DNA of 37,487 nucleotides, taken from positions 1 through 37,487 of the forward strand of contig RDXE01000063.1 in the NCBI GenBank assembly GCA_004292755.1, written 5' to 3'. Shown here one piece after another: positions 21,632 through 26,070 of this stretch. The translations under genes and the position numbers were made by a program. The notes beneath the pieces were generated by a model that was given only the letters and a program-made list of their open reading frames with translations, searched no databases and had not been told where the DNA came from. The DNA comes from Alphaproteobacteria bacterium. GTDB lineage: Bacteria > Pseudomonadota > Alphaproteobacteria > Elsterales > Elsteraceae. The first letter of the stretch is position 1. Each line of letters opens with the position of its first letter.

Positions 21632-22093
21632 ATGCAGCGCCTGACCATCACTCTGGATGACGATCTGGTCGCCCTGATCGACGGCCACATGGCCGCACGG
21701 GGCTATACCAACCGCTCCGAAGCCGTGCGCGACCTCGTCCGCGCAGGGCTTGCGGGTGAGCCGGAGGCGCTGCCAACTGGCGAGTGCGTCGCCACGCTGA
21801 GCTATGTGTACGACCACGAAGCGCGCGACCTCGCCCGGCGCTTGATGGGCACCCAGCACGACCATCATGGGCTGGTGTGGTCCACCCTTCACGTTCATCT
21901 GGATCATGACGCGTGTTTGGAAGTTGCCGTGCTGCGCGGTTCTGTCGCAGCGGTCAAGCGCTTCGCCAACAGCGTGCTGACTGAACGGGGCGTCCGCCAT
22001 GGCACCCTGCACTTGGTCCCCGTCGCGGCCGACCACCACCATAGCCACGATGACGACGTCCACCCCCATCATCACCTGCGCCCCGTCGGGTAA
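21632..22093 (+). CDS. nikR: Nickel-responsive regulator NikR
   Basis: A 153-residue ribbon-helix-helix repressor that binds DNA when loaded with Ni(II). The RHH domain covers residues 1-45 (RLTITLDDDLVALID, then YTNRSEAVRDLVR). The C-terminal ACT-like metal domain holds the full square-planar set at the same numbers as in E. coli NikR: H76, H87, H89 and C95 (the motif HVHLDHDAC spans 87-95). A histidine-rich tail (six or more His between 135 and 148) may add metal sites. No GTATGA-type operator is visible in the 50 bases upstream, and no nickel transporter, urease or hydrogenase gene lies in the window. The ribosome site is weak, so it may be translated from the ABC operon transcript. Confidence 0.95.
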   Translation: MQRLTITLDDDLVALIDGHMAARGYTNRSEAVRDLVRAGLAGEPEALPTGECVATLSYVYDHEARDLARRLMGTQHDHHGLVWSTLHVHLDHDACLEVAVLRGSVAAVKRFANSVLTERGVRHGTLHLVPVAADHHHSHDDDVHPHHHLRPVG

Positions 22094-22500: not shown

Positions 22501-23175
22501 CTAAAACCACCCATCGGCGCCAAAGGCTGGGCGATCCAGCGATGGCTTGGTGATCCCTTCCTCCCGCGCATCCAGCGCCAGCACGCAGGTGAGAAACGCT
22601 TGCGGCCTGCCATCGGCGCCCGCATAGGGCAGGATCTGGCGTACCCACATGCGGTCCGACAGCCAGGGCGGGCTTTCGTGCACGGTGTAAAGCGGGCGCG
22701 CCCGGTCACGGCACGCTTCATAGGCGGCCAGGTAGAACAGGGCGACCCCACTGCGCAGTTCCCGGCCCATGTCGCGGATGGTCTGGCCGGTCCAGTCACG
22801 CGCGGCCCGCACCGCGGTTCGTGAGCCGTAGATACGATAGCGAAAATCCAGCGGCGGCCCTGCCTCCCGCTCCACCAGAAGCACATGGCCAAGGGCACCC
22901 AGAAACCGCATGGGATCATAGTGACCCGCGGGTGGGATTGCTTGACCCGCTGTCGCGCGCGCTTCCTCCCAAGCTGTTAGCAATTCGATGAACGGCGCCC
23001 GGCGCGGCGTGCCAGGACCCCAGACAACCACTGCTGCATCGCGTCCCGGTGGCAGCATGCCAACAGGAACCATCGCTTGCTCGCACTCAACCAACCACGC
23101 GCTGTAGCGTGCGATCTCGCCATCCGCAGGCAGATCGCGCCAGGATGGCTGTTCGGGTGGAATCAACTGAATCAC
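22501..23175 (-). CDS. PAS_5-type domain protein
   Basis: A 224-residue protein with a PAS domain of the PAS_5 type found in Rhodospirillales. The core runs from about residue 110: DFRYRIYGSRTAVRAARDWTG, then IRDMGRELRSG and LTCVLALD near the end. PAS_5 proteins bind small ligands or act as sensors without a fused output domain. Start: GTG at 23175 is favoured because GGAGG lies five bases before it; another GTG at 23211 has no ribosome site. No transmembrane helix is evident. It is divergent from the PHA cluster over a 91-base gap and overlaps operon-wise with the ACT gene. Confidence 0.75.
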   Translation of the reverse strand: MIQLIPPEQPSWRDLPADGEIARYSAWLVECEQAMVPVGMLPPGRDAAVVVWGPGTPRRAPFIELLTAWEEARATAGQAIPPAGHYDPMRFLGALGHVLLVEREAGPPLDFRYRIYGSRTAVRAARDWTGQTIRDMGRELRSGVALFYLAAYEACRDRARPLYTVHESPPWLSDRMWVRQILPYAGADGRPQAFLTCVLALDAREEGITKPSLDRPAFGADGWF

Positions 23176-23266
23176 GCGGTCCTCCGTCGCAGAGGATTGC
23201 GCTGTGATCACCTGCGGCGCAAGACCGGTGGCGGTGTCCGGTCTATCTGCCTATAGTCGCCTCGCC

Positions 23267-23791
23267 ATGACCAAGCCGCCGCGCAAGGACGATCCGGGTG
23301 CGTCGGACGCCGGACCGGCAGAGTCCGCGCCGTCCAGCGGGCCGTCTGCGTCCCCGTCGTCCGGCGGTGACCCGGCTGACCCGGCGGCTTTGGCCGAGGC
23401 ATTTCTCGACCTGTGGCAGGATCAATTGGCTGCCATGGTCGGCGATCCCGAACTGCCGCAGATCGTGGCGCGGTTGTGGGGGTTGTGGACACCGCCGCCG
23501 TTCGAGACCTCGGACCAGACCGATGATCCAGCAGCATCCCCAGGGTCTGGCGTCAGACCCGCCGCCCCCACCGGAGGGGACACCGCCGACCGTGAGGGGG
23601 CCGCTCGCGCCACCGACGAACCGACGGCTGGGGCCGCGCCCGCTTCCCCTGCATCTCGGGTGGCTGGCAACCACGTGGGCGACCTCCTCGCTCGCATTGG
23701 CGAGTTGGAACGCCGGATCGCTCACCTGGAAGCCCGCCCTCGGACCGCGCGCCGCCGCTTGGATCGAGGCCGCCGCCGCGGTCGATCGTGA
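23267..23791 (+). CDS. Small coiled-coil protein upstream of PHA synthase (possible PhaE-like or phasin-like partner)
   Basis: A 174-residue protein. The first 40 residues are Ser/Pro/Asp-rich and probably disordered. A short amphipathic helix follows (ALAEAFLDLWQDQLAAMVGD, 41-60), then a Pro/Ala-rich linker. At 137-156 lies a perfect heptad coiled coil with V137, L140, I144, L147, I151 and L154 at a/d positions. The C-terminus is Arg-rich ([12 protein letters not shown]). This plan recalls short proteins placed before phaC in some Rhodospirillales and, loosely, the helical PhaE subunit; the assignment to that role is inference. The coiled coil lies within the stretch that also encodes the N-terminus of PhaC in another frame. 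Start: ATG at 23267; a GTG at 23204 is also open. Confidence 0.65.
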   Translation: MTKPPRKDDPGASDAGPAESAPSSGPSASPSSGGDPADPAALAEAFLDLWQDQLAAMVGDPELPQIVARLWGLWTPPPFETSDQTDDPAASPGSGVRPAAPTGGDTADREGAARATDEPTAGAAPASPASRVAGNHVGDLLARIGELERRIAHLEARPRTARRRLDRGRRRGRS

Positions 23792-24830
23792 TCGGCTGCT
23801 GACTGCAGTGGAGCATGCCGGGCGCGCGCGCCTCGGACGGTTCATGGCGGGTGTGCTGGCCTATCGCCGCCATCCCTACCGCCGCACGGTGGGCGACGTA
23901 CCAGTGCTGTGGCGGCAAGGGGCAACTCAGCTGCTGGTGTTTGGGGATGATCTTGCCGTCACGGCACCCGTGCTGTTGCTGGTGCCGTCGCTGATCAACC
24001 GGGCCTACGTGCTCGACCTGTCGGAACGGCGCAGCTTCTGCCGCTGGCTTGCGAGCCAAGGCGTGCGGGTGCTGCTGGTGGATTGGGGCACCCCGACGGA
24101 TGTGGAGTTGGGGTTCAATCTGGCGGATGTGGTCTGCGGCCCGCTGGAAGGTGCGCTGGATGCGGCCCTGGACGCTTATGGCGGTCCCATCGGCGTCGGT
24201 GGCTATTGCATGGGTGGGCTGTTGGCGCTGGGGCTCGCCAGCAGGCGCGCGCGCGACATCGCCCACACGGTGATGCTGGCGACCCCCTATGACTTCCACG
24301 CCGACGCGGAGCAGGCGTGCCGTCTGCAAGCCGCAGTGCCGTTCCTGTTGCCGTGGATCGACCGCATCGGTTTCCTGCCGACCGATGGCCTGCAAGCCCT
24401 GTTCGCTGGTCTCGACCCCTCGCTGGTGATCACCAAGTTCGTTGCGCTTTCGCGATTGGCGGCTGACAGCGCCACGGCCGAAGCCTTTGTTGCGTTGGAG
24501 GACTGGATCAATGATGGCGTGCCCCTGGCCGGTCCTGTGGCACGCACCTGCTTGGCCGAGTGGTACGGCGCCAATGCGGTGGCGCGCGGCGGCTGGCGGA
24601 TTGCGGGGCGCCCGGTGCGGGCCGCCGCCTTGGGCCACATCCCCAGCTTGGTCATGGTGCCGGAGGGGGATCGCATCGTGCCACCCGCCTCCGCCAAAGC
24701 GCTGGCAGCGGCGTGGCCAGGGGCACAGTTGATGCCGATCCCCTTGGGGCACATCGGCATGATCACCTCGGCACGCGCACGCACCCAGGTGTGGCAGCCT
24801 GTCGCGAACTGGTGTCACGCGAGAGCGTAG
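23523..24830 (+). CDS. phaC: PhaC-type polyhydroxyalkanoate synthase (alpha/beta fold)
   Basis: A 435-residue synthase of the compact class related to class III PhaC, which polymerises 3-hydroxyacyl-CoA into storage polyester. The lipase-like box GYCMGG has Cys in place of Ser (C229). The catalytic Asp is D383 in PEGDRIV, and the His is H410 in GHIGM. The N-terminal family block starts at RPLPLHLG (residues 39-46) and contains [16 protein letters not shown] follows at 114-122. The start is uncertain: ATG 23523 has no good ribosome site, and GTG 23592, with GGAGGGG 12 bases before it, is an alternative. Either way it overlaps the previous gene by 200-269 bases in a different frame. The thiolase gene follows after 67 bases. 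Confidence 0.85.
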
Positions 24831-24897: not shown

Positions 24898-26070
24898 ATG
24901 ACGGATATTGTGATTGCTGGCGCTGCTCGCACACCAGTTGGCTCGTTCAACGGCGCGCTCAGCAGCCTGACTGCCCATGATCTCGGCACCGTGGCGATCA
25001 AGGCCGCGCTGGAGCGGGCAAAGACCGATGCCGCGGAAGTCTCTGAGGTGGTGCTGGGCCAGATCCTGGCGGCGGGCCAGGGTCAAAACCCGGCGCGGCA
25101 GGCCGCGATGGCCGCTGGCATCCCGCAAGAGCGCACCGCCTATGGCATCAATCAGCTGTGCGGCTCTGGCTTGCGCGCAGTGGCGCTGGGCTTCCAGGGG
25201 ATCCTCGCCGGTGACAATGACGTCGTGGTGGCTGGCGGGATGGAGAGCATGAGCCTCGCCCCGCACGTCATGCACCTGCGCAATGGCACCAAGATGGGCA
25301 ATGCCCAGATGGTTGACACCATGATGCACGACGCGCTGACCGACGCGTTCCAGCACTACGCCATGGGTGTCACGGCTGAGAACATCGCCGAGCGCTGGCA
25401 GTTGACCCGCGACGAGCAAGACGCCTTCGCGATGGCGTCCCAGAACAAGGCGGAAGCCGCCCAGAAGGCCGGTCGCTTCAAGGACGAGATCGTCCCCGTC
25501 ACCGTGAAGACCCGCAAGGGCGACGTGGTGGTGGCCGATGACGAGTATCCCAAGCACGGCACCACCCTGGAGTCGCTGGCGAAGCTGCGTCCGGCCTTCT
25601 CCAAGACTGGCTCGGTCACGGCTGGCAACGCCTCTGGCATCAATGACGGTGCCGCGGCTGTTGTGCTGATGAGCGCCAGTGCTGCTGCCGCCAAGGGCGT
25701 GAGCCCGCTGGCGCGCATCGTCTCCTGGGCAACCGCGGGTGTTGACCCCGCGATCATGGGCATCGGCCCGGTTCCAGCCAGCCGCAAGGCGCTGGAGCGT
25801 GCTGGCTGGACCATCGACGATGTCGACCTGATCGAAGCCAACGAAGCCTTCGCCGCCCAGGCGCTGGCCGTCGGCAAGGACCTCGGCATTGACCCGGCCA
25901 AGCTGAACGTCAATGGCGGCGCCATCGCCCTTGGCCACCCCGTCGGCGCCTCGGGCGCCCGCGTGCTGGTGACCCTGCTGCACGAAATGCAAAAGCGCGA
26001 CGCCAAGCGTGGCCTCGTGACCCTGTGCATCGGCGGCGGCATGGGCATCGCAATGTGCGTTGAGCGCTGA
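24898..26070 (+). CDS. phaA: Acetyl-CoA C-acetyltransferase (beta-ketothiolase)
   Basis: A 390-residue thiolase that condenses two acetyl-CoA to acetoacetyl-CoA, the first step of PHB synthesis. Catalytic residues are present: nucleophile C88 in [11 protein letters not shown]347 in [16 protein letters not shown], and C377 in TLCIGGGMG. Length and ends match biosynthetic thiolases (AtoB/PhaA). AAGGGGA precedes ATG 24898. It lies 67 bases after phaC, so the two probably make one storage unit; no phaB reductase is in the window. The same enzyme could also serve acetoacetate breakdown. A hairpin at 26102-26125 follows. Confidence 0.95.

Follow-up and report, generated by a model that had tools for sequence, protein, structure and literature searches.

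The window analysed here, a stretch of 37,487 nucleotides from an alphaproteobacterium of the family Elsteraceae, carries a small gene, phaC and a thiolase gene in succession on the forward strand (Table 1). The small protein is composed of a helical N-terminal domain, a disordered linker, a C-terminal coiled coil and a basic tail, and AlphaFold2 placed helices at residues 39-58, 63-74 and 136-156, the linker being of low confidence (the mean pLDDT was 71.9). The phaC frame is +1 relative to the small gene, is open from 23298 and ends at 24830. An earlier note, written from the letters of this DNA alone, had described a heptad in the small protein (V137, L140, I144, L147, I151, L154) and, in the other frame, a PhaC block running from RPLPLHLG to WKPALGP; we found the heptad at exactly these residues, and the block, the frames and the coordinates agreed with that description.

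Table 1. Features of the small gene-phaC locus, in coordinates of the window
Feature	Position	Strand	Remarks
Small gene	23267-23791	+	174 aa; ATG 23267, TGA ending at 23791
Small-protein N-terminal domain	23384-23491	+	aa 40-75, LAEAFLDLWQDQ...DP; outside the overlap; from alignment
phaC	23592-24830	+	412 aa from GTG 23592 (more likely start); class III-like PHA synthase catalytic subunit
Dual-coding overlap (at sequence level)	23592-23791	+	200 nt (269 nt only with ATG 23523)
PhaC block GPRPLPLHL	23631-23657	+	closely similar in relatives without the overlap
Small-protein coiled coil	23672-23734	+	aa 136-156; overlies PhaC residues 27-48 in the other frame
TATAGT, predicted -10 promoter element	23252-23257	+	first base 15 nt 5' of the small-gene ATG
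GGAGGGG, weak Shine-Dalgarno-like stretch	23573-23579	+	12 nt 5' of GTG 23592; spacing longer than ideal
Acetyl-CoA acetyltransferase (PhaA-like thiolase)	24898-26070	+	3' of phaC

The PhaC model had a mean pLDDT of 87.1, and a fold search revealed a resemblance to solved PHA synthases, which confirmed a PhaC-like alpha/beta hydrolase. The best NCBIfam model among those listed was the class III model TIGR01836 (E = 3e-44), whose curated cut-off this PhaC does not reach (151.4 versus 365.3 bits). Residues C206, D360 and H387, which we take to be the catalytic triad, are invariant in 20 sequences (A1). The genome holds a second, longer PhaC (G000:C67:123392-124273, in an open frame of 603 aa, 28% identity), which is probably of class I. 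On the 5' side of the small gene, a divergent gene (22501-23211, minus strand) gave a weak match to PAS_5 (E = 0.007, below the cut-off), and the same position is taken by the phaR repressor in seven Azospirillum records. The window also encodes a NikR-like nickel regulator at 21632-22093 on the plus strand (PF08753, E = 1.6e-29).

Spread of the arrangement and start of phaC

We searched for phaC in 60 relatives, 42 of which gave a match at E <= 0.001 (distant class I-like synthases included), and in 385 genomes of the class, where 159 matches were obtained at E <= 1e-40 and loci were taken from among the matches listed. A search of named contigs contributed the best 80 of 547 relatives, 73 of them named as Alphaproteobacteria and seven only as Pseudomonadota, so that this search leans to close relatives. 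The 236 loci were reduced to 226 that are distinct around the PhaC block (ten were identical to another) and to 219 with an alignable PhaC N-terminus, the other seven having none. In 202 of these 219 distinct loci, the small gene lies in frame +2 and its stop falls beyond the start region of phaC, the commonest distance being 137 nt 3' of the anchor histidine of the block (PhaC H21). The N-terminal domain was matched in the same ORF in 198 of the 202, two of the other four being cut by a contig end, and the match extended from the N-terminal domain to the coil in 184. The remaining 17 loci consist of six that end earlier (four in frame +2 and two in frame +1), two weak cases and nine without a match. 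Matches to the small-protein profile at E < 0.01 were found in 208 of the 219 loci; 179 of these loci had also been used to build the HMM, which makes its E-values non-independent, whereas frame and stop position are independent of it. The profile can also match phaC-imprinted sequence alone, as in locus L242 (E = 2.6e-5), where the match falls only inside the overlap and a coil is absent.

In a sample of 299 genomes of the phylum, 18 phaC matches were recorded at E <= 1e-60. Three matches outside the class start at profile position 94 or later and hence lack this N-terminus, which is also missing from six matches within the class. Judged from the sequences, the arrangement spans most of this alphaproteobacterial PhaC lineage and is missing from several scattered branches.

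In the window, no phaC start other than GTG 23592 lies within 120 nt of the anchor histidine. In the congener (G001, locus L003), whose linker is about 80 nt shorter, the only starts in the phaC frame are a GTG at -60 and an ATG at -51 from the anchor, and this GTG lies at the same distance as GTG 23592. Over 151 loci, the share of ATG among phaC-frame codons was about 4% between -96 and -24, 1.9% between -132 and -96 and about 1% farther upstream. The start positions in relatives disfavour ATG 23523, which lies at -129, and suggest that phaC more likely starts at GTG 23592. As relatives favour GTG 23592, the overlap most likely measures 200 nt; the earlier note had allowed for up to 269 bases, and while the overlap itself was borne out, that length was not. 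Measured from the nearest possible phaC start, the overlap ranges from 110 to 335 nt with a median of 200 nt (198 loci).

An ATG, GTG or TTG start lies within 120 nt of the anchor histidine in 196 of 201 overlap loci, and ATG is about four-fold enriched in the phaC frame at this distance and nearly absent from the third frame. Both observations argue against a ribosomal +1 frameshift that would fuse the small protein and PhaC into one polypeptide. The frame relation would fit such a fusion, as would the five of 201 loci in which a start is absent from this range, and the three overlap loci in which the whole stretch from the in-frame stop to the block has no ATG, GTG or TTG; overall, we regard frameshifting as highly improbable. 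Two loci of one genus (L069 and L079, g102) have no ATG, GTG or TTG between the 5' in-frame stop at -84 and the PhaC block, and both carry an ATT at -75, a possible AUU start.

Codon-level selection and lineages without the overlap

An open second frame is weak evidence for a second gene, because GC-rich DNA keeps frames open even when it is shuffled. When phaC was shuffled synonymously, an average of 86 of 151 loci still had the small frame open as far as its observed stop, and antisense ORFs are also open in the GC-rich DNA of the window; the real small frame is open in all 151 loci, but the set was selected for that. What goes beyond chance is the conservation of frame, position and amino acids in relatives together with codon choice.

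The codon tests were carried out with 151 loci drawn from the 201 overlap loci (one could not be used, and thinning at 75% identity removed 49). Overlap columns reused the same synonymous codon beyond expectation with a mean z of 5.0, the other phaC columns with a mean of 1.56 (Mann-Whitney p = 3e-4), and z exceeded 5 in 15 of 41 columns in the overlap versus 36 of 328 outside; since these 36 columns also pass, the z values are inflated by shared ancestry. At two overlap columns, TTG encodes leucine in phaC in 98 of 105 and 72 of 75 loci, whereas elsewhere in these genes CTG accounts for 52% and TTG for 13% of leucine codons. From the genetic code we deduce that TTG is the only leucine codon that gives the small frame a residue with T as second base (Leu, Ile, Val or Phe) followed by a codon with G as first base (e.g., Ala or Glu).

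The small-frame positions over phaC columns 28 and 36 encode I, L, V, M or F in 97% of 149 loci versus 34% and 55% after shuffling, and the base at these coil columns is free to be C, A or G. The other heptad positions also exceeded the shuffles in hydrophobicity, if in a less extreme way, with real and shuffled values of 0.82 versus 0.71 (column 21), 0.93 versus 0.55 (column 24) and 0.80 versus 0.34 (column 31). A coil HMM trained on named loci was applied to 88 test loci whose PhaC was less than 60% identical to that of the training loci (the identity filter took in 68 of these 69). The real sequences scored 40.9 bits and synonymously shuffled phaC 8.6 bits, and in 78 of the 88 loci the real coil outscored every one of 100 shuffles. 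The hydrophobic exchange at the coil columns points to selection at the protein level, and an RNA element would fit it poorly. We consider it barely conceivable that the overlap is an artefact, open by chance in GC-rich DNA or kept by an RNA element instead of a second protein: the 86 of 151 frames that survive shuffling would agree with it, whereas the codon fingerprints, the heptad-specific hydrophobicity and the relaxation in lineages without the coil would not.

The earlier note had proposed to compare synonymous and nonsynonymous rates in both frames. We ran this check on relatives, and both frames look selected. The Azospirillum set comprises 29 of 30 loci, L269 being left out. The genus, in which 43 genomes gave a match, was recognised as Azospirillum because two of its matches share their coordinates with named Azospirillum plasmid records. 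In this set, the phaC pS was 0.285 in the overlap versus 0.358 in the rest (406 non-independent pairs), with a minimum of 0.16 over the coil; in the 45 closest pairs it was 0.080 versus 0.139, and lower in the overlap in 98% of pairs. For the N-terminal domain of the small protein, which lies outside the overlap, pN/pS was 0.35 versus 1.5 and 2.1 in two shifted frames. As counter-evidence, the phaC pN was higher in the overlap (0.201 versus 0.107 in the rest). The claim that both frames carry selected-looking sequence was upheld by codon choice, coil hydrophobicity, the coil HMM and pN/pS, which agree. Each of the two same-strand frames is conserved as protein in relatives, and at sequence level these comparisons show 23592-23791 to be a same-strand dual-coding overlap with both frames under protein-level selection.

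Azospirillum offers some further observations. In L269 (genome G425), the small ORF is disrupted by a deletion of 5 nt, with an ATG at -24 retained in phaC; the deletion is either a real loss or an assembly error. No gene is listed at the small ORF in seven of seven Azospirillum plasmid records, which is suggestive only, the gene table being incomplete, and phaC is labelled as an alpha/beta fold hydrolase in all seven. The phaC start listed for A. brasilense Sp7 is the internal GTG about 69 nt 5' of the anchor histidine, and five other records list this start as well. The review PMC10383645 describes a phbCAB operon on plasmid 4 of A. baldaniorum Sp245 and a chromosomal phbC, and by its gene order the window locus is likely of the type of the phbCAB operon.

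Dual coding had been said to be at risk from relatives that keep PhaC with stops in the other frame. Such relatives do exist, namely a Sneathiella-like genus, L013, L128, L084/L096 and others; from their scattered places in the tree we read them as losses. The Sneathiella-like genus is represented by 24 genomes, 22 of them with a match, and by 21 loci with the PhaC N-terminus; it appears to be Sneathiella itself, as the named Sneathiella chinensis locus L214 matches its locus L243 identically around the block. In nine of the 21, the small ORF stops close to the phaC start or at it, and the N-terminal domain was not found in 12 of the 21. As a quantitative pS control the genus was rejected, its values being saturated and flat (0.731 versus 0.734), and it was used for codon identity only. 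The 24 control loci consist of its 21 loci together with L013, L128 and L214, and include one duplicate (L214 equals L243 around the block). Their codons at column 29 are CTG (five), CTT (five), TTG (five), CTC (three) and six further codons seen a single time; conservation is lost at columns 32, 35 and 37. The PhaC block GPRPLxLHLGL is closely kept in the Sneathiella-like loci. Because it is kept in lineages without the overlap, the first half of the PhaC block can be attributed to a requirement of PhaC itself, and much of the LxxGSLxW half appears, on this comparison, to be an imprint of the small frame.

We built a quick PhaC tree of 118 rows without the trait columns. Overlap versus no overlap requires at least eight changes on this tree (seven or nine if the doubtful row L113 or L242 is relabelled), and well-supported branches alone force two. 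Overlap rows are found on both sides of the midpoint root, with non-overlap lineages in several places among them. Parsimony alone cannot separate repeated loss from repeated gain; repeated loss is the likelier course, because gain would need the same coil to arise in the same frame several times. In some lineages the small protein is apparently not strictly required, since these keep PhaC although the coil is missing or a small gene is not detectable. L113 and L128 carry sister PhaCs (SH-aLRT 100), with an early stop in the small frame of L128 and, in L113, an open frame that no longer encodes a coil. In L258 (genome G391), the match to phaC is confined to the C-terminal part (query 159-397) and contains two in-frame TGA stops, and this phaC is either a decaying or a misassembled copy.

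Expression and possible role of the small protein

The promoter test covered 144 of the 151 loci, as seven have no ATG near the N-terminal motif. A TATAAT-like hexamer was located at -20 to -7 before the small-gene ATG in 89 of the 144 loci versus 2.1% expected from shuffles, with its first base at -16 to -11 and a peak at -12. There was no Shine-Dalgarno enrichment before the small gene in the 144 loci (3.03 versus 3.14). A -10 element placed for a start at the AUG, combined with no Shine-Dalgarno sequence, predicts leaderless expression in 89 of 144 loci, with the small-gene mRNA starting at or within about 3 nt of the ATG. The chosen phaC starts have a mean Shine-Dalgarno match of 3.86 of 6, compared with 3.32 at random in-frame sites, and these slightly better matches make internal initiation of phaC likely. 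Termination-reinitiation was set aside on distance. Intergenic distances of about 20 nt almost abolish such coupling according to PMC10666635, whose subject is not long overlaps; in the present locus about 200 nt would have to be bridged backwards from the small-gene stop to the phaC start, which makes this route unlikely.

We propose that the transcript of phaC would begin with the small gene as a leaderless first cistron, and that phaC would be initiated at an internal start inside the small gene. The overlap would tie the two genes into one unit, and ribosomes on the small gene may open the phaC start region, probably with no re-initiation there after termination. The predicted leaderless start and the internal phaC start would equally suit a small ORF that is a translated leader, in which the passage of ribosomes controls phaC and the product has no further function. 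This alternative seems improbable to us, as purifying selection acts on the amino acids outside the overlap (the pN/pS of 0.35) and I, L and V exchange conservatively at the coil positions.

Among 54 members of the small-protein set, no Pfam or NCBIfam family was obtained beyond generic coiled coils and scattered weak hits: PhaE (PF09712) is absent among the Pfam families shown, no PhaR family is among the 25 of 27 NCBIfam families shown, and no phasin family is among the 25 most frequent in Pfam (of 50) and NCBIfam (of 27). Comparison of the small-protein profile with the PDB gave only coil-like matches that are hard to interpret. A search of the genome of the window with PF09712 gave no match. 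The small protein was rejected as a PhaE homologue, since hhalign aligns only 23 coil columns with a probability of 26%; in the PhaE set these columns form a coil-like stretch near the C-terminus.

PF09712 has matches in 46 genomes, and we examined 20 phaE loci. phaC directly follows phaE in all 20; in 18 its first ATG lies 3-13 nt past the stop of phaE, and in two it overlaps this stop by 4 nt. A partner gene directly 5' of phaC is thus common to phaE (20 of 20) and the small gene. Because the small gene holds the place of phaE in class III operons, we propose by analogy that its product is a PhaE-like accessory subunit, filed here by its way of working and not as a member of the PhaE or PhaR family. 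The proposal is also favoured by the short PhaC with a class III model as its best match, by the lack of a PF09712 match in the genome of the window and by the coil-like stretch of the PhaE set. The small protein would act on PhaC much as PhaE does in class III or PhaR in class IV, by means of the helical N-terminal domain, the coiled coil (in oligomerisation or docking) and the basic tail. From gene order and architecture, the small protein and PhaC may have a joint role at the PHA granule.

Dual coding could also be real with a small protein that is a phasin- or PhaM-like factor of granule nucleation or anchoring, sharing the operon without being a synthase subunit. Amphipathic helices, a coiled coil and a basic tail would, from general knowledge, also suit granule or DNA binding, and the small protein has no shown homology to PhaE. 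The lack of phasin families among the 25 most frequent shown (Pfam or NCBIfam, 54 members) and the close linkage of the small gene to this one PhaC type speak against such a factor, which we consider unlikely, although it deserves to be kept in view. The accessory subunit of PhaE or PhaR type, combined with the dual-coding overlap, the leaderless first cistron and the internal phaC start, makes up the explanation that we favour as a whole and hold to be rather probable.

It is tempting to go further and to suggest, if tentatively, that Alphaproteobacteria possess an undescribed two-subunit PHA synthase. The unlisted small protein would be its second subunit, with a coiled coil written in another frame over the N-terminus of the catalytic partner, and would be translated from a leaderless mRNA with phaC starting inside. 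Part of the conservation of PhaC, in LxxGSLxW, would then be an imprint of the small frame and not a requirement of PhaC.

Comparison with known systems

About 200 nt look dual-coding across a large group of bacteria, with codon choice as direct evidence, and long same-strand overlaps have rarely been confirmed. The locus may serve as a natural test bed for two proteins that share bases, with lineages that are missing one of them. The small protein has apparently been skipped by annotation beside a polymer-making enzyme of biotechnological interest; conserved residues of this phaC may reflect a hidden partner, and codon-optimised versions may destroy that partner. Among the matching open-licence PubMed Central papers listed, none describes the overlap in its title or abstract opening, a statement that holds for those papers only and is no proof of absence.

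The class III phaE-phaC system (PF09712/TIGR01836) resembles the present locus in its short catalytic PhaC, in its partner gene directly upstream and in a coil-like stretch near the C-terminus of the partner. It differs in that the 174-aa partner described here has no detectable homology to PhaE, and in that phaE and phaC lie 3-13 nt apart (18 of 20) or overlap by 4 nt (two of 20), whereas the overlap here is about 200 nt. In the class IV phaR-phaC system of Bacillus, a small partner similar in size to the small protein of the window is encoded 5' of phaC; we know of no overlap in that system.

As to overlaps as such, a survey of 338 genomes (PMC2478687) accepted, among 715 co-directional overlaps, none of 60 bp or more as real, and put forward a rule that marks cases of this kind as errors. 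The longest real one in the survey is holD-rimI with up to 56 bp; like the overlap in the window it is on the same strand and conserved across species, and it is far shorter than the roughly 200 nt found here. A known long same-strand overlap is that of rnpA and rpmH in Thermus, as cited in PMC9841429. It is similar in that a long stretch of one strand is used in different frames, with both Thermus products expressed. In contrast, rpmH is nested in rnpA according to that source and the two share one initiation site, whereas in the present locus the 3' tail of one gene overlaps the 5' head of the next and the two starts lie hundreds of nucleotides apart.
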